Below, in pieces: positions 1 through 23,729 of a stretch of DNA of 40,372 bases. Source of the stretch: Candidatus Saccharimonadota bacterium (lineage in GTDB: Bacteria; Patescibacteriota; Saccharimonadia; Saccharimonadales; Saccharimonadaceae); assembly GCA_026395405.1 (NCBI GenBank), contig JAPLYU010000001.1:210493-250864 (forward strand). Reading direction: 5' to 3'. How positions within the stretch are numbered: position 1 is the stretch's first letter; the number at the start of each line of letters is the position of its first letter. A model generated the notes under the pieces. That model saw nothing but the letters and a program-made list of their open reading frames with translations. It searched no databases and was not told the origin of the DNA. The position numbers and the translations under genes were made by a program.

Positions 1-45
1 ATGTAGTTTCAGCACTTCAAGTTATGCATTATTCGTATAAGTTTG

Positions 46-51
46 TATAAT
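46..51 (+). promoter_or_regulatory. -10 box of the restriction-endonuclease-like gene
   Basis: A perfect TATAAT ends 8 bases before the ATG at 60, so transcription should start at or next to the start codon. No Shine-Dalgarno sequence is present. The remainder of 1-59 shows no recognisable coding end of another gene. Confidence 0.5.
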
Positions 52-59
52 GCATTTAT

Positions 60-704
60 ATGAATGCCTATAATACAATTTTCACAGAATTATTCAAAGA
101 CGAAAAACTTGTAAAACAAATAAAACAGAAATTACCAGAATTATTCCTGCTGGCTGAAATTGAAAACTCACGCAATGGTAAATTGGGAATGGAAATAGGC
201 TCTGCGAGAGAGCGAATTATCATTGCTTTGCTGATGCATAAATATGGTGTAGCTGCAGTTGATGCCGATTTACCTATTACCTTAGCTGAGGTTGATGTTG
301 TCGTTAAGGGTGAACCACTTTCAATTAAAACGGCGACTGGTCTAAAGATACCAGGGGTTAAATTAATATGGTCAGTAGATGCCCAAAAAGCACTGGAGTT
401 TAAGGATAGATACGAACCTGTTTGTGACTTGATGTTAGTACAGTTAAATTGGAACGGTGTTGGCTATATGCATCTATTCCCTAAACAGACACAAATTGAT
501 GTACTGAATAAACTTGGCAGGGATGTTTATATTAAATTACCCAAGCAGGGTACAAATGCTAGAGGTGTCGAACTGAGCGGACTAGCTATTACTGAGCTTA
601 TAAAATCATCAACTTCGTTAAAAATATCTATTGATTTTGTACGTGGTGATGTCGATTATAGGGCATCCTACCATCGTTGGTTGGAATACTGGGCAAATGA
701 CTAG
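60..704 (+). CDS. Probable type II restriction endonuclease (ThaI-like, PD-(D/E)XK)
   Basis: This 214-aa protein resembles, from memory, the ThaI restriction endonuclease family (the ThaI enzyme cuts CGCG). Seen directly: a helical N-terminus, then around residues 75-95 a short acidic strand with EVDVVV, followed by LSIKTATG. This fits the E/D...x-x-K metal site of PD-(D/E)XK nucleases. The rest alternates strands and helices with no signal peptide or membrane segment. Its partner methyltransferase is not in the window and would have to lie upstream, or the gene is solitary. It sits inside the integrase-bearing element, in line with restriction genes as cargo or stabilising modules. The start at 60 is favoured by a TATAAT box 8 bases upstream. 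Alternative: another PD-(D/E)XK nuclease of unknown specificity. Confidence 0.5.
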   Translation: MNAYNTIFTELFKDEKLVKQIKQKLPELFLLAEIENSRNGKLGMEIGSARERIIIALLMHKYGVAAVDADLPITLAEVDVVVKGEPLSIKTATGLKIPGVKLIWSVDAQKALEFKDRYEPVCDLMLVQLNWNGVGYMHLFPKQTQIDVLNKLGRDVYIKLPKQGTNARGVELSGLAITELIKSSTSLKISIDFVRGDVDYRASYHRWLEYWAND

Positions 705-718
705 CACGTTGTTATTGT

Positions 719-741
719 GATTCTAACGCCTCGATAGAATC
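719..741 (+). terminator. Possible hairpin after the nuclease gene
   Basis: A 7-bp inverted repeat GATTCTA / TAGAATC with a 9-base loop lies 15 bases after the nuclease stop. Only a weak T-rich tail follows, so termination is tentative. Confidence 0.3.
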
Positions 742-773
742 GTGCCTTACTATCAATGTCCTTGTTTTCAGAT

Positions 774-779
774 TATAAT
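774..779 (+). promoter_or_regulatory. -10 box upstream of the serine recombinase
   Basis: TATAAT lies 27 bases before the recombinase ATG, with a GAGG Shine-Dalgarno-like sequence about 8 bases before that ATG. No good -35 hexamer is seen. Confidence 0.4.
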
Positions 780-806
780 ACGGATATAACCCAGTGAGGC
801 GAATCC

Positions 807-2486
807 ATGGATAATGACAGTAATCTACAATTAAAACAACTTGTTGAAAGTTATATTAACGATGAGTCTAGTGATGAATTAGACCCAAAGTTATTGCATT
901 ATGCTATGTACGTCAGAAAATCGACTGAGAGTGCCGAGAGGCAAGCACGTTCAATCCCTGACCAAATCCAAGATTGTTTCGAAAGTGTTGTTATCCCATT
1001 GAAATTACCAGATTTCCAACAAAAGGATATATTCAAGGAAGAACGCTCGGCCAAAGAGGCTGGCACTAGACCAGTATTTCGAAAACTCATACAAGCTGTT
1101 GAAAGTGGTCAATATGACGGTATTATCAGCTGGCATCCAGACCGACTGTCTCGCAATATGAAAGATGCTGGTGAAATAATCGACCTTATTGACCGCAATG
1201 TGATAAAAGATATGCGATTTGCACGTGCTCATTTTGAAAATACACCGAACGGTAAGATGACGCTCGGAATCAGCTTTGTACTGTCAAAACACTACTCCGA
1301 GCATCTGAGTGAGTCAGTGAATCGTGGTAATCGAAGAATCACCGAGAAAGGTGGCGTTCTGCATAAGTTCAAACACGGCTACAGGATTATGCAGGACAAT
1401 AGTTTGGTTGCCGATGATGATAACTATCTGTTAATTCAACAGGCTTTTGATATGAGAAAAAATGGTTCAACGCAAAGGGAGATTGCCGATTTTCTAAATA
1501 ACAGCAGTTATCAAGTGTACAAACGTGGCCATGGCCATAAGCAGTATAGATTCGATGAGGATGCTATCTCGAAGATGTTACGTGACCCAATATACGCTGG
1601 TGTAATAAGATATGGTCGTAGAGTAGGACTAGTTTCTGATTATGACCCATTATTTACGCCAATGCTGACTGATGAGGAGTTTCTTGCATTGCACGGTGAG
1701 AAAAACTTTATGTCGAAATCATTTCGAGCTACTAGTGAAACTGTGAAGGCTGATAATTCCAACTTTTTGCGTAGGTGTGTTATTTGTAGCCATTGTGGGC
1801 GATATATGACCACATCTACTGCGGCCAGTGGCAGTGCAAAAAAGACAGTCTATTTTTACTATCGGTGTGAGAATAAAGGTGGGTGCATATATGCTAACAG
1901 CGGCCCAAGGGGTGCAGTTATACTTGACTATGTTTTGGACTTCCTTGATACACACAGATTTACTACTAGGGATAATTACGAACAGTATAAAAAGGATGTC
2001 GAGGAAAAGTTACGTTTTGACACCGAGGAAAACGCACGAGTCATTGCTCAGGCAACTGTGCTGATTGGAAAAAAGAAAAAAGAGTTTGAAAATGCCAAAG
2101 CTGCGGCTGCGGACAAGGACAACCCAATCCATGTTTATTACACCCCTGCAGAACTGAAAAAGCTGGAAACTGAAGTCAAAGATATTGATAGGGAACTGAA
2201 GAAAGCTCGTGAGAAAAAAGGTCGTCAGGACGAGTCAATGATGACTTATGAAGATTTCCTCGAACTTTTTGATAATACTGTTGAAATACTTCGGTCAACA
2301 ACCCACATGTCGACTGCAGATGAGATAATTCGCATTTTCTTCTCGAACTTTACAGTTTCGGCAATTCCGAAGGGTAAAAATGGCAAACAAAAACAGTGGT
2401 CAGTAACTAACCACTGTCTTGCTAAACCTTACGACCAATTTGTTAAAAATGGTCAATTCTCTAATGGTCGGGGTGAAAGGACTTAA
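807..2486 (+). CDS. Large serine recombinase (site-specific integrase)
   Basis: This 559-aa protein cuts and rejoins DNA through a 5'-phosphoserine intermediate, integrating or excising the element. The resolvase domain (about residues 30-180) opens with YVRKSTES, placing the nucleophile at Ser39, and includes the arginine-rich DRLSRNM motif near residue 112. The recombinase domain follows (GGVLHKFKHGYRI, around 190). A zinc ribbon sits near 325-365 (CxxC in CSHCG, then two more cysteines). A lysine/glutamate-rich coiled coil spans about 410-475, as in large serine integrases. The length suits the family. The last 22 bases overlap the 3' end of tRNA-Pro(TGG) on the other strand, so the C-terminal GRGERT and stop are written by tRNA sequence. 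The ORF is intact, so the element may be mobile. Confidence 0.9.
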   Translation: MDNDSNLQLKQLVESYINDESSDELDPKLLHYAMYVRKSTESAERQARSIPDQIQDCFESVVIPLKLPDFQQKDIFKEERSAKEAGTRPVFRKLIQAVESGQYDGIISWHPDRLSRNMKDAGEIIDLIDRNVIKDMRFARAHFENTPNGKMTLGISFVLSKHYSEHLSESVNRGNRRITEKGGVLHKFKHGYRIMQDNSLVADDDNYLLIQQAFDMRKNGSTQREIADFLNNSSYQVYKRGHGHKQYRFDEDAISKMLRDPIYAGVIRYGRRVGLVSDYDPLFTPMLTDEEFLALHGEKNFMSKSFRATSETVKADNSNFLRRCVICSHCGRYMTTSTAASGSAKKTVYFYYRCENKGGCIYANSGPRGAVILDYVLDFLDTHRFTTRDNYEQYKKDVEEKLRFDTEENARVIAQATVLIGKKKKEFENAKAAAADKDNPIHVYYTPAELKKLETEVKDIDRELKKAREKKGRQDESMMTYEDFLELFDNTVEILRSTTHMSTADEIIRIFFSNFTVSAIPKGKNGKQKQWSVTNHCLAKPYDQFVKNGQFSNGRGERT

Positions 2487-2510
2487 ACCTTCGACCTCTC
2501 GGTCCCAAAC
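2465..2510. other. Putative attachment site core in the tRNA-Pro 3' half
   Basis: The T-arm and acceptor end of tRNA-Pro(TGG) coincide with the end of the integrase ORF. The exact crossover cannot be placed without the other end of the element. The interval is the likely region, not a measured core. Confidence 0.4.
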
Positions 2511-2540
2511 CGAGCGCGCTATCAACTGCGCCACACCCCG
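2465..2540 (-). tRNA. tRNA-Pro(TGG)
   Basis: On the minus strand the acceptor CGGGGTG pairs with CACCCCG, followed by discriminator A and an encoded CCA. The anticodon stem CTCGG/CCGAG holds loop TTTGGGA, giving anticodon TGG. The T-arm is GAAGGTTTAAGTCCTTTC, with TTTAAGT in the loop. Its 3' end overlaps the integrase ORF by 22 bases. The upstream leader (2541-2650) is similar to the one before the second tRNA-Pro at 4473. Confidence 0.95.
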
Positions 2541-5276: not shown

Positions 5277-6544
5277 TTTATTACCTCGACCTTTGCGATT
5301 TTTGATAGATTTTTGCGAATTGCCAGCATGGCAGTATAAGTACAATAAATACGCATAGGTTGTTTGCTGTACCGAGCAACAAATTTATTTAGAGCTGATT
5401 TTAAATCGGTATCGACGTCACGAATTTTAACTTCATCATATTGCAACCGCAGTGCCATGTCATAGGCTCGAACACCGGAAACTTGTTCGACACCATCATC
5501 GACTAAACTGGAAAAATCTACATCCCACAACCACGACATGTCGCGACCGTCGGCATAGTTATCATTAATCGCAATCATTGTTGCATACCCGGCTGAATCA
5601 AATGATTTTAGTCCAAGCCGGAAACCCGATGGGTTTTTTACCAACACTAATTCTAGCGGCTGACCGTTTACTTTTATCATTTCCCCGCGACCAAACGCTG
5701 GCGTTACTTTGGATAATGCAACGATTAGTTTTGATTGGTCGATTTTTTCGCCGATGATTGCACGAACTAGTGATAGCGCCGCTGCAGCATTAAAGACGTT
5801 ATAAACGCCAGTTAATTTTAGTTTGGTCGACACGGATTTGCCGTCGATTATAAAAGTGGCCGAACTGTCTGAAAATTTAGATAAAATAACATCTGCAGTT
5901 TGAGTTGCTTTTTTGTGATTGCCATTGCCATGTAAATCGTCGTCACTCGGGAATAGCGGCAATAAACTTTCATCCAATCCGTAAAAACGGACTTTGTCGT
6001 CATCCAAAGATTTAGCAATGCTAGCAATCCGTTTGTCTTCGCGGTTTAGTACGACCGTTTCGGTCGTGGCGTCAGCAACACAGCGGAGCAGATTGGTCGT
6101 GTGGTCTATTTCACCGAACCTGTCCAATTGATCTCGCATCACATTTAACAGCAGGCTAAAGCGGGGTATTATCTTTTTAACGAAATGAACAGCATGAGCT
6201 TCGTCGAGTTCCAACACGGCAATGTCGGCATGAAGTTCGCCTTTGATATTAATTTCGCCCAAAAGCGCAGCTGCGATACCGCGTGTAAAATTACTGCCCG
6301 TGCGGTTGGTAAATACTTTCAATCCTTGGCTTTCCAGTAATTCGACTACCATTTTTGTAGTTGTTGTTTTGCCATTAGTACCACTAATTACAACTACACC
6401 CAGCGGCAAATCGGCTAAGGTGTGTGAAATAAAGTTCGGGTCGATATGTTCGACAACTAATCCCGGCAAGGCAGAACCGCCACCACGAAGACCGGCAGCT
6501 TTTTTTACAGCTTTACCTAAAATAGTGACAAGGGGTTTTGGCAT
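5273..6544 (-). CDS. murT: Lipid II isoglutaminyl synthase, Mur-ligase-like subunit MurT
   Basis: This 423-aa ATP-dependent ligase subunit works with GatD to convert D-Glu to D-isoglutamine in lipid II. The P-loop ISGTNGKTTTTKMV lies near residue 55, LELDEAHAVHF near 112, and the Mur-ligase middle-domain motif NVMRDQLDRFGEID near 134. A C-terminal DUF1727-like region begins near 290 (LVLVKNPSGFRLGL, then AINDNYADGRDMSWLWDVDF). MurT of Gram-positive bacteria carries a Cys4 zinc ribbon inserted in the middle domain. Here the equivalent stretch (about residues 165-250) has no cysteines, so the ribbon is absent or replaced by an acidic/His-rich loop. TATAAT ends 7 bases before the ATG, suggesting a leaderless mRNA for murT-gatD. 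Confidence 0.88.
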   Translation of the reverse strand: MPKPLVTILGKAVKKAAGLRGGGSALPGLVVEHIDPNFISHTLADLPLGVVVISGTNGKTTTTKMVVELLESQGLKVFTNRTGSNFTRGIAAALLGEINIKGELHADIAVLELDEAHAVHFVKKIIPRFSLLLNVMRDQLDRFGEIDHTTNLLRCVADATTETVVLNREDKRIASIAKSLDDDKVRFYGLDESLLPLFPSDDDLHGNGNHKKATQTADVILSKFSDSSATFIIDGKSVSTKLKLTGVYNVFNAAAALSLVRAIIGEKIDQSKLIVALSKVTPAFGRGEMIKVNGQPLELVLVKNPSGFRLGLKSFDSAGYATMIAINDNYADGRDMSWLWDVDFSSLVDDGVEQVSGVRAYDMALRLQYDEVKIRDVDTDLKSALNKFVARYSKQPMRIYCTYTAMLAIRKNLSKIAKVEVIK

Positions 6545-11856: not shown

Positions 11857-11934
11857 GGCGGATGTAGCTCAGTTGGTTAGAGCATCGGGTTGTGGTTCCG
11901 AGGGTCGTGGGTTCGATTCCCATCATTCGCCCCA
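11857..11934 (+). tRNA. tRNA-His(GTG)
   Basis: The acceptor GCGGATG pairs with CATTCGC. The encoded G-1 faces discriminator C73, the identity pair of bacterial tRNA-His. CCA is encoded. The anticodon loop TTGTGGT gives GTG. The T-arm is GTGGGTTCGATTCCCAT. It is followed directly by the trailer hairpin, then a structured T-arm element. Confidence 0.95.
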
Positions 11935-11975: not shown

Positions 11976-12119
11976 ATGTTCGGGTGATTGAACCCACGAC
12001 ATCGTGGGTGAGAACTGCCAGTCGGCAGTTCGCAAGGCCGGAAGCCGGATGACGAATGTCACCGACTGAGGCGGGGTCGCGGAATTTTCTGAAAGAAAAT
12101 ATCTGTGACCGATTCCCAT
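11976..12119 (+). repeat. tRNA-His trailing element: split T-arm with structured insert
   Basis: In order: an antisense T-arm (TTGAACCCACGAC) and sense T-arm 5' half (TCGTGGGT), which fold back; an 8-bp stem GAACTGCC/GGCAGTTC with loop AGTC (12012-12031); GCAAGG; small hairpins CCGG/CCGG and TGAC/GTCA; and a stem GGTCGCGGA/TCTGTGACC (12075-12083/12102-12110) capped by ATTTTCT/AGAAAAT. It ends with CGATTCCCAT, a 10-base exact copy of the tRNA-His 3' T-arm (11914-11923). The insert breaks the tRNA copy in the T-loop. The same plan and shared stems recur after tRNA-Lys. Confidence 0.65.
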
Positions 12120-12137
12120 AATTTAGTTATTTTGTTG

Positions 12138-15407: not shown

Positions 15408-15965
15408 TCAAGCACCTGCAGGGAAACAACCTATGTTTTGAGATCCTACATTTACAGAAACATTGCCGTTAATAGTCGGGGAAGTAGATATTTGAGTATT
15501 AGCCCAATCAAATGCATATATTTTACTGCCTGTTATATTAGTAATGTCGGCTGCAGCTGCAGGTGCAGCATTGTTGCCAAGCGTTCTAACACCGCAAATT
15601 ACGTATAAGACAGAAGATTTTGAGGCCGGAGCAGATCCCGTAATTGGAAGTACTGTACTGGTTGTTGTTCCCATTGCATCATATGTGACGCCGTTTAAAT
15701 TATAAGTTGCAGCGGGAACGAATAGGGTTGCTAGCGTGACGGGGTATTTGCCTGTGGTTGATGCTTCGGACGCGTATACGTTTATTTTTTTATTGACTGA
15801 ATTTACAGCATGTTGGCTGGACGCGGTATTTGCCTTAGCCGTTATGCCGGTATAAGAGACGACGGATATTGCTGCTAATAAGCCAATTACAACGATAACA
15901 ACTAATAGCTCGACTATAGTGAAGCCTCTTTTATTATGTTTAGTTTTGACAAATTCCTTAATCAT
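15408..15965 (-). CDS. Type IV pilin-like protein 1
   Basis: This 185-aa prepilin has a short basic leader ending KRG, then FTIVELLVVIVVIGLLAAISVVSYTG. Prepilin peptidase would cut after Gly15, the +5 Glu is present, and the N-terminal hydrophobic helix forms the pilus core. The globular domain is Ala/Thr/Val-rich, with two cysteines (VICGV near 133 and IGCFPAGA at the end) that could form the C-terminal disulfide loop. It is preceded by GAGGT and a promoter shared in sequence with the next two pilin genes. No assembly ATPase or PilC/PilM genes are in the window, so the machinery lies elsewhere. Confidence 0.88.
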   Translation of the reverse strand: MIKEFVKTKHNKRGFTIVELLVVIVVIGLLAAISVVSYTGITAKANTASSQHAVNSVNKKINVYASEASTTGKYPVTLATLFVPAATYNLNGVTYDAMGTTTSTVLPITGSAPASKSSVLYVICGVRTLGNNAAPAAAADITNITGSKIYAFDWANTQISTSPTINGNVSVNVGSQNIGCFPAGA

Positions 15966-15995
15966 TGACTACCTCTTGTTATTGGTTATGCTATT

Positions 15996-16024
15996 AATAT
16001 ACTATGCCAAATACATTTGTACAA
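15996..16024 (-). promoter_or_regulatory. Promoter of pilin 1
   Basis: Minus strand: -35 TTGTAC, 17 bp, -10 TATATT, then a leader beginning AATAGCATAACCAATAAC. Spacing and -10 are identical to those of the other two small pilin genes. Confidence 0.65.
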
Positions 16025-16082
16025 GTGAGTTTGCAATAATTTTACATATTATATTTATGAGAATGATCTTTGTTTATAAAAT

Positions 16083-16110
16083 CATAACACTCACAGTAGT
16101 GAGTGTTATG
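16083..16110 (-). terminator. Terminator after pilin 2
   Basis: A perfect 12-bp stem CATAACACTCAC/GTGAGTGTTATG with a 4-base loop, 26 bases past the pilin 2 stop. A moderate T-rich tail (ATTTTAT) follows on the minus strand. Confidence 0.65.
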
Positions 16111-16135
16111 GATTAAACAAAGCTTAAATAGTTAG

Positions 16136-16609
16136 TTAGTCGCAGGTTGGGCTAGCTATATTCATATTGCCAGCTGTTGCGGTACCTAGGTACTTATAGC
16201 CTACCGAACCAGAAAAGTCCCAATAAGCTACACACGCACCCGTAAGAGGGGCAGAGGTATCAGCTTGATATAGGATAGTAGTTGCACCGGTGGCATTAGT
16301 CAAAGCATTCAAACTACCAGCCGCTACGGTTACTCCCGTAGGTACCTTTGCCAGACCATTGTACGCTGCAAGTGTTGCTGCATTGTTTGGGTAACCAGTC
16401 TTCGTGTCATCAGCTGCGTATGTATTTGCAACACTTGCTACAGAATCAGCGTTTGCCTTTGCTGTCGAAGTGTTTGCCTTTGCTGTTATGCCAGAATAAG
16501 AGGCTACTGTTATTGCGGCCAATATTCCGATTACTACGATAACGACCAAAAGTTCAACAATCGTGAAACCGCTGTCTTTTTGTCTAGTTTTGATATTGTT
16601 TAGAATCAT
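16136..16609 (-). CDS. Type IV pilin-like protein 2
   Basis: This 157-aa prepilin has leader ...KDSG then FTIVELLVVIVVIGILAAITVASYSG, with processing expected after Gly14 and Glu at +5. The body is small and Ala/Thr-rich. The cysteines in GACVAYWDFSG (near 128) and SPTCD (C-terminus) frame a likely disulfide-bonded loop. It is closely related to pilin 3, sharing the GAC(V/I)(A/S)YWD motif and the leader sequence, so the two arose by duplication. An AGGGGG Shine-Dalgarno lies about 10 bases before the ATG. It has its own promoter and terminator, so pilin expression can be set gene by gene. Confidence 0.9.
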   Translation of the reverse strand: MILNNIKTRQKDSGFTIVELLVVIVVIGILAAITVASYSGITAKANTSTAKANADSVASVANTYAADDTKTGYPNNAATLAAYNGLAKVPTGVTVAAGSLNALTNATGATTILYQADTSAPLTGACVAYWDFSGSVGYKYLGTATAGNMNIASPTCD

Positions 16610-16641
16610 TATTGATGCCCCCTATTATTGGTTATGGTATT

Positions 16642-16670
16642 AATATACTACGTAGATGATATTAGCACAA
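16642..16670 (-). promoter_or_regulatory. Promoter of pilin 2
   Basis: Minus strand: -35 TTGTGC (16665-16670), 17 bp, -10 TATATT (16642-16647), then leader AATACCATAACCAATAATAG and GGGGG. The leader is nearly identical to that of pilin 3. Confidence 0.7.
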
Positions 16671-16710
16671 GTGTTTTATTTAAAACAATTTTATTACTTA
16701 TAAAAGCATG

Positions 16711-16737
16711 AAAGTGGCACCGTTTTGGTGCCACTTT
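16711..16737 (-). terminator. Terminator after pilin 3
   Basis: An 11-bp stem AAAGTGGCACC/GGTGCCACTTT with a 5-base loop and flanking A and T runs, 33 bases after the pilin 3 stop. It can work in both directions. Confidence 0.75.
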
Positions 16738-16769
16738 TTGTTTCGTTAAATTAATTTAAGCTGCATGGA

Positions 16770-17252
16770 CTACGTACAAGCAGCTGTGCCCGCATTATAA
16801 GCTACTGCAGCTCCTAAAAATATCTTTCCAGGTAGCCCCGTCCCCGTGTCCCAGTAAGAAATACAAGCCCCCGTCGTTCCTAAAGGTGCGTAGTAGATAG
16901 GACTAACCCCGTTAACCAGATCACCAACGACTGGGTGACCGGCGGTCGCCAGCACTGGTACGACACCATTTGGTAAGGCCGTAGAAGTATATCCGGTGAT
17001 AGCTGCAATAGTAGTAGGGAAAGCACCGTTTCCACCACCATTTGCTACTGAATCAGCCGTCTGAGCGGCGACAACTTGCATTACTGAGTTTGCATTTGCT
17101 TGTGTCTGGGATGCTTTTGCCCTTGTAGTGAAGCCAGTATAAGAAACAATTGTAATTGCTGCCAATATACCGATAACTACGATAACGACCAAAAGTTCAA
17201 CAATAGTGAAACCACGGTCCTTTCGATTAGATTTGATTTTATTTAGGATCAT
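16770..17252 (-). CDS. Type IV pilin-like protein 3
   Basis: This 160-aa prepilin has leader ...KDRG then FTIVELLVVIVVIGILAAITIVSYTG, to be cut after Gly14. The mature part carries GACISYWDTGTG near 128 and a C-terminal Cys in AGTAACT, the same frame as pilin 2. The middle section differs, being rich in Asn/Gly (ANGGGNGAFPTT). It is the paralog of pilin 2 with a duplicated promoter and leader. Sequence variation is concentrated in the surface-exposed region, as expected for pilins. Confidence 0.9.
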   Translation of the reverse strand: MILNKIKSNRKDRGFTIVELLVVIVVIGILAAITIVSYTGFTTRAKASQTQANANSVMQVVAAQTADSVANGGGNGAFPTTIAAITGYTSTALPNGVVPVLATAGHPVVGDLVNGVSPIYYAPLGTTGACISYWDTGTGLPGKIFLGAAVAYNAGTAACT

Positions 17253-17287
17253 ATTTTTCTGTGCCCCCTATTATTGGTTATGGTATT

Positions 17288-17316
17288 AATATACTACGAC
17301 GTTTATATTAGCACAA
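17288..17316 (-). promoter_or_regulatory. Promoter of pilin 3
   Basis: Minus strand: -35 TTGTGC (17311-17316), 17 bp, -10 TATATT (17288-17293). The downstream leader matches pilin 2 for about 25 bases up to the AGGGGG site. Confidence 0.7.
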
Positions 17317-17350
17317 GTGTTTTGTTTTTATAATACAATTTTGTGATTTA

Positions 17351-19462
17351 TTAAGTGCCAGTTTGCAAGGCTGAAGTGACAATCGAGATATTTGGATCAG
17401 TTAATGCGGATGAGTAATTAGTTATGCGTTGAATTGGCCCACAAAAATAATTTCCGAAAGAACTACCAATAATTGCGGTAGCATTCATACCTGTACCGGC
17501 AACTGAGTAGTTATCTGTCATTGTGCCGGGTACGCCATCAAAAAAACTTCGAACAGTACTGCCAACGCTCCAGCGCCCTAAGCGTGCATGATAGCCAGGG
17601 TTTGAATTTCCCACGGCATCAAACTTTGTTCCGACACCGTTAGTCCAGGTCGTCATATATTGCGAAGAAGAGTAGCCGCTATATCCAGTCAGATAGCCTG
17701 TGGCCCCACTCCATTGCCAGGTTCCACCATATGCAGCCGGATTTGCTCGGTATGATGAGTCGCCAGCCTCGATTGCCATCGTTCCAGTACTTACATTCCA
17801 GTTTGTCGTCGGTACGGTTACGCTGTCAGCGGCTCGAGTTGCGGACGAGGTTGTTGTGGGTATATATGAAGTGGCAAAAGGTCCTTTTTCAAGTTGAGCG
17901 GCCGACATTGAAATATCGTATGAATCCCCAGTACTTATGTTACCTGCAACTACAGCTATCCAGGCAGAAACAGTGCCTGCGGGGAATGCTGTCGATGTAA
18001 GGGAGAATCTTTGCCAGGTGTTATTTAATTGTGGTCCAACATCTGGGCCGTAGTATCCAGTAAAAGTAGAGCCGTCAACTTGGTATGCTCTAATTTCAAG
18101 AGTCACAGAAACACCGGATGCGAATCCTTTTAAATATACACTTTCGGTAGCAGTGTCGCCTGGGGCAAACCCTGGATATTGGGGGGTGTATAAATAAGAT
18201 GCTGTACCGGCATCGCTAGTAGCCGTATATGCCTCGCGTTGATAATTTGAACCGTAAACGCCACCTGCAGGTCTGGAAAAAGTTGGGGTACCGATTGTGT
18301 TTTTCCAATTATACCAATTATCTGATGTACCGTCGCTGTCGGTGTCCGCACTGTATGAAGAATTTAGCAAATAGTTTGTTCTGGCTTCCTCAATTACGGC
18401 CTCATTGCCAGTCTTACCGTCGCTTCTGGGCCTAACCCCCAAGTAATTTGCTGGAACGTCATATATTTTTTGAGTTGCCGGGTCGTATATCGTCGATGGT
18501 GTTACGCGACTGACCGTAGCCCAATTGTGTGTTACTAAATCATAGAAATTGCCAACGTGATCACCCTGTGGTGTAGCTAGCCAATCTGCTACTGGCGATT
18601 GTGGTGCTTGGTTTTTGTATGTTGAATTCAAGTTGATTGACCGAATCGAACCGGCTCGGCTGATGTCGCGTCCAGCCATTGTGGCGCCTGCAGTAATTTG
18701 AACGTTCACGGTATTAGTAGGATCCATTGCGGCCTGCCTCATTGTATCAGTCTGAGTGGCGTCACTTGCCAGAACATTTGCAGTAGTAGAGCCGGAGACG
18801 AAGTAGCTGACATTAAAGCCGCTAGGTTGTACTCCGTCAACTAACTCCTCGTCCTTGGCTGTACAAAAAGCATCCGTAATAATAGGGGAGCAGCTTGGTT
18901 TTTGCCAAGGCACACCGCATTTGGCAGAGGCATAGTCAGATGGAGCAACTGTACGTCGCCAAAGTGAACTAACGCCATTAACATTTTTTACGAAATATAT
19001 GATATTTATAGTTATTTTTGTATTTTGATTTACTAACGTGCTGGCGCAGGCGTATGGTTTGTCAATTGCGTAAACATAGTTCCGTGTTGAGGAAATCGGG
19101 TTCGAGGTTGTGGCGTAAGTGTTAAGAATTAACATCGCGCCATTTGTGGCATCGGCATTCTTGAAATTTGCCGATTGGTTGTCAAAACCCTGTGGGGATC
19201 TGATTGCTACATTATTCACCGCCAGGTAACCACTACTAGCAGCCACGTCTTGGTCTATTTGACTGAGGGCTTGCTGCACATTAAACGCCAGCGCATTCGA
19301 TCCCCTGGAAGCAATAACAGCACCAACCATATTGATAATTGCTAGTATAAAGCCGCCTAATACTATAATGACAATCGGGGCAATAATCACCATTTCGACA
19401 AGTGTAAATCCTCGACGTTTGACGACTGTGTTTGGGTATTTGATTAATTTCTTTTTATACAT
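17351..19462 (-). CDS. Large pilin-like protein with lectin-type C-terminal region
   Basis: This 703-aa protein has a type III signal: KRRG then FTLVEMVIIAPIVIIVLGG near residue 19. It would be processed and inserted like a minor pilin. The first ~200 residues resemble a PilW/PilX-like body with several cysteines (ACAST, KCGVPWQKPSCS, DAFCTAKDEE). The C-terminal ~350 residues are Gly/Ser/Thr/Tyr/Trp-rich beta sandwich-like (NYLLNSSYSADTDSDG, WQRFSLTS, SYIPTTTSSATRAADSV), as in carbohydrate-binding or phage-tail lectin modules. A tip adhesin role is inferred. It follows the 19475-20548 gene by 12 bases with AGGT as a weak Shine-Dalgarno, so it is last in the operon started at 21069. Confidence 0.75.
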   Translation of the reverse strand: MYKKKLIKYPNTVVKRRGFTLVEMVIIAPIVIIVLGGFILAIINMVGAVIASRGSNALAFNVQQALSQIDQDVAASSGYLAVNNVAIRSPQGFDNQSANFKNADATNGAMLILNTYATTSNPISSTRNYVYAIDKPYACASTLVNQNTKITINIIYFVKNVNGVSSLWRRTVAPSDYASAKCGVPWQKPSCSPIITDAFCTAKDEELVDGVQPSGFNVSYFVSGSTTANVLASDATQTDTMRQAAMDPTNTVNVQITAGATMAGRDISRAGSIRSINLNSTYKNQAPQSPVADWLATPQGDHVGNFYDLVTHNWATVSRVTPSTIYDPATQKIYDVPANYLGVRPRSDGKTGNEAVIEEARTNYLLNSSYSADTDSDGTSDNWYNWKNTIGTPTFSRPAGGVYGSNYQREAYTATSDAGTASYLYTPQYPGFAPGDTATESVYLKGFASGVSVTLEIRAYQVDGSTFTGYYGPDVGPQLNNTWQRFSLTSTAFPAGTVSAWIAVVAGNISTGDSYDISMSAAQLEKGPFATSYIPTTTSSATRAADSVTVPTTNWNVSTGTMAIEAGDSSYRANPAAYGGTWQWSGATGYLTGYSGYSSSQYMTTWTNGVGTKFDAVGNSNPGYHARLGRWSVGSTVRSFFDGVPGTMTDNYSVAGTGMNATAIIGSSFGNYFCGPIQRITNYSSALTDPNISIVTSALQTGT

Positions 19463-19474
19463 TTTTTATACGAC

Positions 19475-20548
19475 CTATGACTGGTACCTGCTTTTAATCG
19501 CATTATAGTCTTGATTAATTTCTGATGGGGTTAATGCCCTATTATATGCCAATATAACAGACATACTACCTTGCCAATAGTTTCCCGTATACCCAGTTGC
19601 AATAGATATATTAGCTGAAGTAGCAGGTATTATGCCGAAAGGATTTCCGGTAGTCGAGCTCTGTACGCCGTTAATATACCACGCTTGAGTTGTCGAACTC
19701 CTTGTCGAAGCCATAAAATTCCAAACATTCCTAGGTGTTGCGGCGCTAGCTGCCCCAACGTACGAGCCCCCGTCAGCTCCATTACTTCCGTAATATTGAT
19801 TAATACCATTCCCAGTTTCATGAGTCCAAGTACCAGCGCCACCATATGCCTGGTTCCATGGATTTCGCCTTAGGGTTGTGGCTGAATGTTTCATTACCAT
19901 TATTAAAGTTTGTCCGTTGGTGAAATATAGCGAAGAATTATTCGTAATTGTTCCATATTGATTTGTGCCATTAAAGACGATTGCTCCTCCGCCGTCAGTC
20001 GTAAACCCTGGGCCGTTAGTGAGGGTTGCGTTGTTTCCGCTGGTACTTAAATCTGTCCATGTTACTCCGGAGCCAGGATAGGATGCAGTATTACCAGCAT
20101 CTAAATCAAGGACAAGGCCAGATGTTACAATGCCAGAATTTTGGTTTGATACAAACGTCGCATTTCTGACGGTTTGTTGGGGGGTGCCGTATTTTATTGT
20201 TGCAACGACTTCCGATACGGTTTGTGGTGTGGATTCTGCAGCGTATGAACCAGAGCTGTATGGGCACATTATGGCGACAGTTACGTTCACATTCGATAAC
20301 CCGGATACAGTTATTGGTGAATTTGTCAGCGGTGTTTGTGCAGTGCAAGGATTGGTTGCCGTTGACTTGTAGCGCTGGATATAATCCGTAACAACGCTGC
20401 TGGCACTGGCCATCATTCGTGCCTCACCGCCGTTCTTGATTATGGCTGTATACAGTTCAAAACCAGAGAGCAAAAAAACAGCCGCGATAAATAAAGTAAT
20501 TAATAACTCTACTGCTGAAAAGCCTGACTGATTAGATTTATATCTCAT
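19475..20548 (-). CDS. Pilin-like protein with LamG/concanavalin-type domain
   Basis: This 357-aa protein begins with a basic leader (MRYKSNQSG) and FSAVELLITLFIAAVFLLSGFELY, a type IV prepilin signal with the +5 Glu. After a short pilin-like stretch to about residue 140, the C-terminus matches the LamG/concanavalin A-like jelly roll: LVLDLDAGNTASYPGSG, WTDLSTSGNNATLTNG, VFNGTNQYGTI, then WYINGVQSST and YNRALTPSEINQDYNAIK. Such domains bind glycans or proteins. The start codon overlaps the stop of the upstream pseudopilin (ATGA). It probably works with its neighbours as a pilus-tip adhesin. The ligand is unknown. Confidence 0.82.
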   Translation of the reverse strand: MRYKSNQSGFSAVELLITLFIAAVFLLSGFELYTAIIKNGGEARMMASASSVVTDYIQRYKSTATNPCTAQTPLTNSPITVSGLSNVNVTVAIMCPYSSGSYAAESTPQTVSEVVATIKYGTPQQTVRNATFVSNQNSGIVTSGLVLDLDAGNTASYPGSGVTWTDLSTSGNNATLTNGPGFTTDGGGAIVFNGTNQYGTITNNSSLYFTNGQTLIMVMKHSATTLRRNPWNQAYGGAGTWTHETGNGINQYYGSNGADGGSYVGAASAATPRNVWNFMASTRSSTTQAWYINGVQSSTTGNPFGIIPATSANISIATGYTGNYWQGSMSVILAYNRALTPSEINQDYNAIKSRYQS

Positions 20549-21069
20549 TGGTTTAAACTTGTCACCATAATTACATTATTATCAACCTCTTGCCTATAAA
20601 ACAGATTGAATTTGCGGCACTCCACGGCATCATTACATAACGTCCCGTCACTATGCAAAGGTTGATAGACGTATTGATTGATATTTGGCTGTGGAGTTAC
20701 TCCCGCGGTCGTTTGAACGCAGGCTCCAGAACAGCTAGCAGGTATAAATGTTTGAGTTGGAGTCATTGGGTCGGTTAAACCTGGGGCCGTCAGCGAATCG
20801 GTGTCGACATCACGTAGAGCCGTTGTCATGGCATTCTGAGTTGCTGTAATCGAGGTCGAGGGATATCCGCCAACATCCGTGCTGTTGTCTGTGCCGGACG
20901 TGTAATATGCTTCTAGTTGCTGAGCGATTGATTCCACGTCGGTTTTTCGTTCAGTGTCACGTCCATTAGCCTGAGAACTTCGCAAATTCACAACGCCCAA
21001 GGCTATTAAAGCGGCCATTACTGTAATAACAATAACCAACTCAATGATAGTAAACCCACGACGTCGCAT
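20545..21069 (-). CDS. Type II secretion/type IV pilus pseudopilin (GspG/H-like)
   Basis: A 174-aa protein from the chosen ATG: MRRRG then FTIIELVIVITVMAALIALGVVNL, with cleavage after Gly5. The following region RDTERKTDVESIAQQLEAYYTSG and the later YP...ALRDVDTDSLTAPGLTDPMTP resemble GspG-type pseudopilins. Two Cys lie close together in PASCSGACVQ, and two more in LCNDAVECRKF. An upstream in-frame ATG at 21105 would lie within the promoter, since TTGCGA/17 bp/TATGAT ends 7 bases before the ATG at 21069. This makes it the leaderless first gene of a three-gene operon with two large pilin-like adhesins. Confidence 0.83.
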   Translation of the reverse strand: MRRRGFTIIELVIVITVMAALIALGVVNLRSSQANGRDTERKTDVESIAQQLEAYYTSGTDNSTDVGGYPSTSITATQNAMTTALRDVDTDSLTAPGLTDPMTPTQTFIPASCSGACVQTTAGVTPQPNINQYVYQPLHSDGTLCNDAVECRKFNLFYRQEVDNNVIMVTSLNQ

Positions 21070-21076
21070 ATGTATA

Positions 21077-21105
21077 ATCATAAACGTCTTAGGGTCAAAT
21101 CGCAA
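21077..21105 (-). promoter_or_regulatory. Promoter of the pseudopilin operon
   Basis: Minus strand: -35 TTGCGA (21100-21105), exactly 17 bp, -10 TATGAT (21077-21082). The -10 ends 7 bases before the ATG at 21069, which sets the start and predicts a leaderless mRNA. Confidence 0.6.
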
Positions 21106-23423: not shown

Positions 23424-23500
23424 GGGCCAGTAGCTCAGCTGGTTAGAGCGTCTGCCTCTTAAGCAGAATGTCGTGGGTTCAAGTCCCACCTGGCCCTCCA
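23424..23500 (+). tRNA. tRNA-Lys(CTT)
   Basis: The acceptor GGGCCAG pairs with CTGGCCC, then TCCA. The anticodon stem TCTGC/GCAGA with loop CTCTTAA gives CTT. The T-arm is GTGGGTTCAAGTCCCAC. From the T-loop onwards (23480) the sequence is repeated exactly 185 bases downstream. Confidence 0.95.
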
Positions 23501-23544
23501 AATGAATGAGACCTATCTACGGTAGGTCTCATTCATTTGGGATG
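23480..23544 (+). repeat. 65-bp direct repeat, copy 1 (tRNA-Lys T-loop to trailer)
   Basis: Runs from CAAGTCCCACC in the T-loop through the acceptor, CCA and trailer hairpin to GGGATG. It is identical to 23665-23729 over all 65 bases and diverges immediately on both sides. Confidence 0.9.
23498..23540 (+). terminator. Trailer hairpin of tRNA-Lys
   Basis: A perfect 18-bp stem (23498-23515/23523-23540) with a 7-base loop, starting at the CCA of the tRNA. An identical hairpin recurs in the second repeat copy. Confidence 0.75.
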
Positions 23545-23664
23545 GTTTTGTTGGCTTGAAACCACGACTGTCGTGGGTGAGACCCGCAAGTCTGCGGGTC
23601 GCAAGGAAACAAACTCTTGAAAACTGGTTTTCAAAGAAGTTTTTTCGGGGTCGCGGAACGTGAC
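23545..23664 (+). repeat. tRNA-Lys trailing element: 120-bp structured insert
   Basis: In order: antisense T-arm (TTGAAACCACGAC), sense T-arm 5' half (GTCGTGGGT), an 8-bp stem GACCCGCA/TGCGGGTC with loop AGTC (23581-23600), GCAAGG, a hairpin TTGAAAAC/GTTTTCAA, and a stem GGTCGCG/CGTGACC (23649-23665). It is followed by the second copy of the tRNA 3' end. Stem order, the AGTC loop and the strings GGGTGAGA, TCGCAAGG and GGGGTCGCGGAA are shared with the tRNA-His element, while several base pairs differ in a compensatory way. Confidence 0.7.
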
Positions 23665-23729
23665 CAAGTCCCACCTGGCCCTCCAAATGAATGAGACCTA
23701 TCTACGGTAGGTCTCATTCATTTGGGATG
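23665..23729 (+). repeat. 65-bp direct repeat, copy 2 (displaced tRNA-Lys 3' end)
   Basis: An exact second copy of the tRNA-Lys 3' end with its trailer hairpin, not attached to a tRNA 5' half. With copy 1 it brackets the 120-bp insert, like the two ends of an insertion in the T-loop. Confidence 0.9.

Follow-up and report, generated by a model that had tools for sequence, protein, structure and literature searches.

A previously undescribed family of small structured elements at transfer RNA genes of Patescibacteriota, probably mobile and bearing an antisense guide segment

The gene for the lysine transfer RNA (tRNA) with anticodon CTT in a Candidatus Saccharimonadota bacterium (assembly GCA_026395405.1) carries a small, non-coding, structured insert that belongs to a family of sequences found beside tRNA genes of many identities. 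The insert lies in a window of 40,372 nt (the whole stretch of DNA that was analysed, equivalent to G000:C4:210493-250864 in a genome of 0.86 Mb), and coordinates given here without a locus name refer to that window. We consider the family members to be, probably, miniature non-coding mobile elements of tRNA genes that carry an antisense guide segment spanning the insertion junction, and we favour a folded RNA as their active form. The family is previously undescribed: it matches neither an Rfam family nor any phage or plasmid record, and searches of the open-licence literature on introns of the candidate phyla radiation, tRNA repeats, T-loop integration, and structured-RNA surveys brought up no description of it, although a description elsewhere is possible.

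The host gene, tRNA-Lys(CTT), is intact (23424..23500, plus strand; ARAGORN, Rfam, and the sequence itself). Its 3′ part is present twice, as two 65-nt direct-repeat copies (23480..23544 and 23665..23729, both on the plus strand) that a repeat search finds to be 100% identical at a spacing of 185; an exact 65-mer recurring at 185 bp is far beyond chance. The repeat comprises the 3′ half of the T-loop, the 3′ strand of the T-stem, the acceptor strand, the CCA, and a trailer hairpin with 18-bp arms that include the CCA end (23498..23540, plus strand, recovered as inverted repeat I2). The insertion point lies after G53 (23477), and the repeat starts exactly at C56 (23480) of the T-loop. Folded as RNA, the tRNA together with its insert gives a z-score of −12.6. 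The original prediction, made from the letters alone, had reported this exact repeat with sharp edges around a 120-bp insert encoding no protein; both observations hold, and an open reading frame check found none in the 120 bp.

What that first reading missed is how the insert opens, with an antisense copy of the T-arm and a sense copy of the T-stem, and that its core recurs elsewhere in the genome. Copy 1 is followed by a short linker and then by the antisense guide segment CTTGAAACCACGAC (23555..23568, plus strand; read from the sequence and put to a family-wide test), the reverse complement, with one mismatch, of tRNA-Lys from the T-stem through the T-loop. It is complementary at 13 of 14 positions to tRNA nucleotides 23470-23483, across the insertion point. 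Next comes the sense copy of the 5′ T-stem strand, TGTCGTGGG (23569..23577, plus strand; sequence and covariance model match), which pairs with the other T-stem strand, supplied by copy 2, and so closes a conserved structured core of 87 nt (23578..23664, plus strand; model match and covariation). The core consists, in order, of hairpin Pa (GACCCGC/GCGGGTC), GCAAGG, hairpin P2, GGGG, and hairpin P3 (GGUCGCG-GAA-CGUGACC, with a near-invariant G.U pair). A covariance model built from 16 copies (R1) matches the Lys element at 23569-23675 with 114.3 bits (E 5.8e-26).

This core is a real structured nucleic acid. Across 110 distinct sequences, 96.6% of the scored pairs of the three-hairpin core are standard, as against 76% in shuffled sequences and no more than 52% under a shifted pairing; there are 554 double-compensated cells, compared with 109.5 in shuffles, and double changes occur at 24 of the 29 pairs, although all these figures lean towards structure since the 110-sequence alignment was fitted to the model. 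An independent alignment of 16 sequences already has double changes at 20 of the 29 pairs. At one P3 position, 104 of the 109 scored rows have G.U, and a near-invariant pair of this kind is typical of RNA. Searches of the element regions against Rfam 15 gave no gathering-level match except tRNA, and permissive thresholds added only chance matches and a hammerhead in a neighbouring cassette.

When the insert was used as a query on its own genome, related sequences appeared beside tRNA genes for Arg, Gly, His, and Val. All of them share the conserved core, and each has an antisense segment, a T-stem copy, and a 3′ end copy that correspond to the tRNA beside it. With R1, the genome holds about 13 family copies, nearly all beside a tRNA. 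One of these is a second member in the window (12000..12120, plus strand; R1 match at G000:C4:222492-222612, 83.2 bits), of a type with a long P3, which lies 66 nt downstream of tRNA-His(GTG) (11858-11934) and has its guide at about 11986-12000. Within the same taxonomic family, 52 of 151 genomes (38 of 105 good ones) are positive, with 0 to 14 copies each, and presence is patchy, close relatives of positive genomes often being empty.

A scan of the phylum with a model of the core only (R2) found 45 of 380 genomes positive, spread over 36 genera. The phylum-wide copies have a simpler layout: tRNA, trailer, antisense segment, P2, P3, and an exact copy of the tRNA 3′ end. Among 131 unique copies, 110 adjoin tRNAs of many identities, 79 of them just downstream (typically 59-86 nt) and 31 just upstream; the other 21 have no same-strand tRNA within the stretch fetched. 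All but two of the tRNA-associated copies are co-oriented with the transcribed sense of the tRNA. The family thus shares the traits of miniature non-autonomous mobile elements of the MITE type: it is multi-copy, small, non-coding, and patchily distributed, with duplicated target flanks. Some copies depart from the common pattern. Solo cores away from any tRNA, in which a hairpin with a TTTAC loop replaces the guide, were seen at L383, L397, and L071, and two of the three retain a flank pair resembling a T-stem. In one distant genome the core lies within a repeat of about 250 nt that occurs twice away from tRNAs (L466:2585-2658, minus strand, and 6266-6339). At L398:407-580, a degenerate gene resembling tRNA-Val(GAC) has the core in its T-loop and a complete acceptor stem, with no intact tRNA in the 1 kb fetched.

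The copies occupy defined points within tRNA genes and come in two mirror-image forms. The T-loop is the insertion site of all 76 downstream copies assessed, with the 3′ part of the tRNA and its trailer present twice. The insertion into the T-loop with restoration of the tRNA 3′ end that had been proposed for the Lys locus is therefore borne out by the same core at the T-loops of many other tRNAs, the 3′ end being duplicated each time. Upstream copies lie at the junction of the D-stem and anticodon stem (16 copies, after tRNA position about 24-25), in the T-loop (8 copies; T-loop insertions fall after G53), or in the anticodon loop (3 copies). Their layout runs from a second, often degenerate and interrupted 5′ tRNA part through a few bases of the other half and the antisense segment to the intact tRNA. 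Each copy thus duplicates the tRNA part that it cut off, which is the 3′ part for downstream and the 5′ part for upstream copies, so that the host tRNA stays intact and working. Some single tRNAs have both forms (L079 Leu, L089 Pro, and L094 Gln), and the bases to the left of the core end in RG in nearly all cases.

Several observations point to movement. Comparison of the Lys locus among relatives, suggested as a check by the original prediction, turned up empty sites: the congeners L015, L018, L020, and L023 have the tRNA-Lys gene without the element. What follows the second 3′ end in the occupied loci L482 and L488, terminator included, aligns with the sequence after the sole 3′ end of the empty L018. 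The second copy is therefore the original end of the gene, and the segment from the first T-loop through the core was added. In three genomes the repeats of the youngest copies are perfect over 63-65 bp, and the 65-bp identity may reflect duplication during insertion, not an attachment site that existed beforehand. Relatedness among cores does not track tRNA identity: on the core tree, tRNA identity changes 72 times (shuffled mean 74, range 69-78) and layout 22 times (shuffled 23.8), whereas the nearest-neighbour core lies in the same genome in 21 cases against 4.6 expected and at the same tRNA in 9 against 5.4. We take this to mean that a core passes from one tRNA to another and acquires new flanks and a new guide there; the case that no core is bound to one layout or to one tRNA is strong but not final.

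The guide fits its current host. The score of downstream guides is 12.05 for their own tRNA and 7.71 for other tRNAs, with 6.10 for shuffled sequence, and 91% of them span the junction. Where the second acceptor strand has decayed, complementarity is similar (11.1 versus 12.5, p = 0.13). In the sense T-stem copy of eleven elements, on Gln, Lys, and Ile tRNAs, TC has become GA at a shared position; this turns two pairs of the guide hairpin into tandem G.A, and the guide still fits the tRNA. The recurrence of this change looks like convergent tuning of a functional helix.

The unit common to the copies consists of one half of the target, the core (Pa, P2, P3), and the other target half, plus an antisense splint for the uninterrupted target. 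Its sense strand would act as a folded single strand, most likely a co-transcribed RNA, whose guide would pair with the target across the insertion point in the manner of an internal guide sequence. Movement could then proceed by the RNA's own transesterification, resembling reverse splicing, or with an enzyme of the host or of a helper acting in trans; a circle of the unit, if formed, would have GTGAC joined to CAAGTCCC at its junction. Replication is known in bacteria to correct imperfect inverted repeats by template switching, and such correction is one possible route by which the guide may be rewritten. An RNA form is favoured by the invariant G.U, the tandem G.A in the guide hairpin, co-orientation with the tRNA, and the lack of a mobility protein that consistently tracks the copies. 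The most specific version of this scheme is an RNA element, acting without protein or with help from the host, that locates a tRNA gene through a guide spanning the junction, inserts, and in doing so copies the target junction in inverted form, so that each new copy would be equipped with a guide for its new site. Such a self-retargeting guided mobile RNA is put forward tentatively, as an idea that we would sooner doubt than expect to hold.

Several points weigh against a mobile element guided as an RNA. No movement has been observed, and the core, at only about 90 nt, yields a poorly resolved tree on which random-looking tRNA changes are partly expected. Upstream guides are weaker (8.29 against their own tRNA and 6.34 against others), and 57% span the junction. 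To our knowledge, a guide of 14-20 nt in this orientation has no exact precedent. The two copies that break co-orientation (L386 and L387, in different genomes) are inserted antisense to tRNA-Phe, again with a matching guide, and are easier to reconcile with a DNA target than with insertion into a transcript of the tRNA. Lastly, the search for a mobility enzyme found none: across positive and negative genomes, RVT_1, RtcB, TnpB, IS110, and Phage_integrase fail to track the copies, and Y1_Tnp does so at best in part.

The main rival, which the antisense insertions would suit, holds that the element moves as single-stranded DNA on which an enzyme of the host or of a helper acts in trans, as with IS200/IS605 and REP elements or the folded attC of integrons. 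At IS608 ends, a guide beside hairpins pairs with the cleavage or target site, which the guide and hairpins of the present family resemble, and folding of the sense strand only would suit single-stranded DNA as well as RNA. Y1 HUH transposase genes were present in four of nine positive genomes, that of the window included, and in none of six negative ones; however, Y1 transposases are missing from the other five positive genomes, which include G003 and G124 with their 13-14 copies. TnpB/Cas12f-like proteins were absent from all 15 genomes searched, most genomes have a single Xer-like recombinase with or without copies, and IS608 guides, at 4 nt, are far shorter than the present one. We regard a DNA element of this kind as possible, though not as the explanation to be expected.

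Other enzymes fare no better. A reverse transcriptase is lacking in the genome of the window and occurs in four of 13 genomes overall without tracking the copies, IS110 transposases were found in none of 18 genomes, and the presence of RtcB does not follow that of the copies. The insert holds no cognate tyrosine integrase and no dedicated integrase tracks the copies; for the Lys insertion, neither a conventional integrase nor a free circle nor excision has support as yet. No protein-coding parent element with the same ends was seen in the cargo loci inspected. Phage and plasmid records gave no blastn match and a longer-pattern scan of viruses gave none either; first scans of viruses and genomes with 14-mers were too unspecific.

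A self-splicing or ribozyme-excised tRNA intron, in which a transcript would span both 3′ ends and the segment from the T-loop to copy 2 would be removed, is unlikely. The guide would align both exons as a group I internal guide does, and acceptor strand and CCA are kept in copy 2 of 51 of the 79 downstream copies. Against this, the tRNA is complete without splicing, 27 of the 79 have lost the second acceptor strand, and the first, interrupted tRNA part of upstream copies often has a broken anticodon arm. There is no gathering-level match to group I or group II intron models, nor any to group I introns at permissive Rfam thresholds; the fold is the T-stem plus three hairpins.

Lower still in probability, and indeed improbable on the boundaries described here, is an array of integron-like gene cassettes, each made of a tRNA 3′ end, cargo, and core. 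Genes do lie between tRNA and core at L462, L482, L485, and L488, and at L462 the cargo is flanked by two cores. At several tRNAs, 0.6-10 kb are inserted between tRNA and element, with a short acceptor/CCA copy preceding the guide. All cargo cases inspected in detail join at the acceptor/CCA end, leaving such a short second copy (CCCCGACCAT, GGCCCTCCA) before the guide; the cargo is therefore a separate insertion, which we treat as independent of the element, and the cassette idea was rejected on this boundary. Some of the larger islands also carry their own large serine recombinase: one is present in the larger CCA-end insertions (L482 and L485) and in the island at the left edge of the window.

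That island, of 8.2 kb, lies at the 3′ end of tRNA-Pro(TGG) (2465-2540, minus strand) and was noted in window positions 1-2540 and L095 (G000:C4:203000-214000). It encodes a probable DNA cytosine methyltransferase, a tyrosine recombinase, and a large serine recombinase of 559 aa that overlaps the tRNA end; at its far end, 10 bp of the tRNA CCA end are repeated, and another family copy, matching tRNA-Pro, comes next. We considered the island as an autonomous parent of the family and rejected it, its boundary being at the CCA end and not in the T-loop. Smaller cargo of 0.6-3.6 kb without an integrase was noted at the CCA end of the element-bearing tRNAs L462, L484, and L488 (G208, G426, and G038), with NUDIX-like, DUF4145 plus HNH, and other contents. 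Type III hammerhead ribozyme sequences occur near the Val and Gly copies (L051:1480-1534, about G000:C4:309050-309107, and L049:776-830), both directly after a GC-rich short open reading frame; one scores 39.7 bits against RF00008 (gathering 48.5) and the other was found by pattern only. Elsewhere in the window, type IV pilin-like N-terminal motifs (GFTIVELL and similar) mark a gene cluster at 15408-21105 on the minus strand.

That a single locus recently underwent simple tandem duplication or slippage, the alternative that the original prediction had kept, can practically be dismissed: such an event would account for the exact 65-bp direct repeat and for the tandem units of some relatives, but homologous structured cores recur at many tRNA identities, at different positions, and in dozens of genera, and empty sites lack the core. 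The tandem variants that were to betray slippage do exist in a few relatives (L060, L470, and parts of L054 and L412), yet those at L060 and L470 have the core inside each unit and are not simple slippage.

Among the closest known systems are elements that integrate at tRNA 3′ ends or T-loops. Mycobacteriophage Ms6 has its attB in a tRNA T-loop (PMC1762012), and partial tRNA genes are known to arise from integration (PMC9897764). Like such elements, the present family inserts within a tRNA gene, restores the tRNA, and leaves a tRNA fragment at the far end, and it combines a direct repeat of the tRNA end with occupied and empty sites. Unlike them, it measures only about 120-190 bp, has no integrase, possesses a covarying RNA-like core and an antisense guide, also uses the D/anticodon junction, and duplicates either the 3′ or the 5′ part. 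With group I introns it shares tRNA genes as hosts and a single guide aligning both sides of the junction, but its core is below 100 nt with a different fold and no Rfam match, and a splicing product is neither needed nor maintained. REP/REPIN elements with their RAYT and IS200/IS605 ends (PMC3116915, PMC8266576) are likewise tiny, hairpin-based, non-autonomous, and multi-copy, and the cleavage site of IS608 is chosen by base pairing; the family differs in its strong tRNA targeting, a 14-20-nt guide rewritten for each target, a much larger conserved fold, and a helper gene that is inconsistently present. As in the IS110 bridge RNA, a structured RNA with target-matching segments would specify the insertion site, but the element holds no protein gene and the IS110 transposase is missing, as noted above.

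A structured multi-copy family across a large bacterial phylum thus moves, on the probable reading given here, among tRNA genes without harming them, its guide fitting the current target, and a defined element accounts for many of the partial tRNA genes that these genomes contain. Should insertion prove to be directed by the guide, the family would represent a novel form of nucleic-acid-guided mobility, based on a core of about 90 nt, and nature would offer a case of retargeting accessible to study in vitro.
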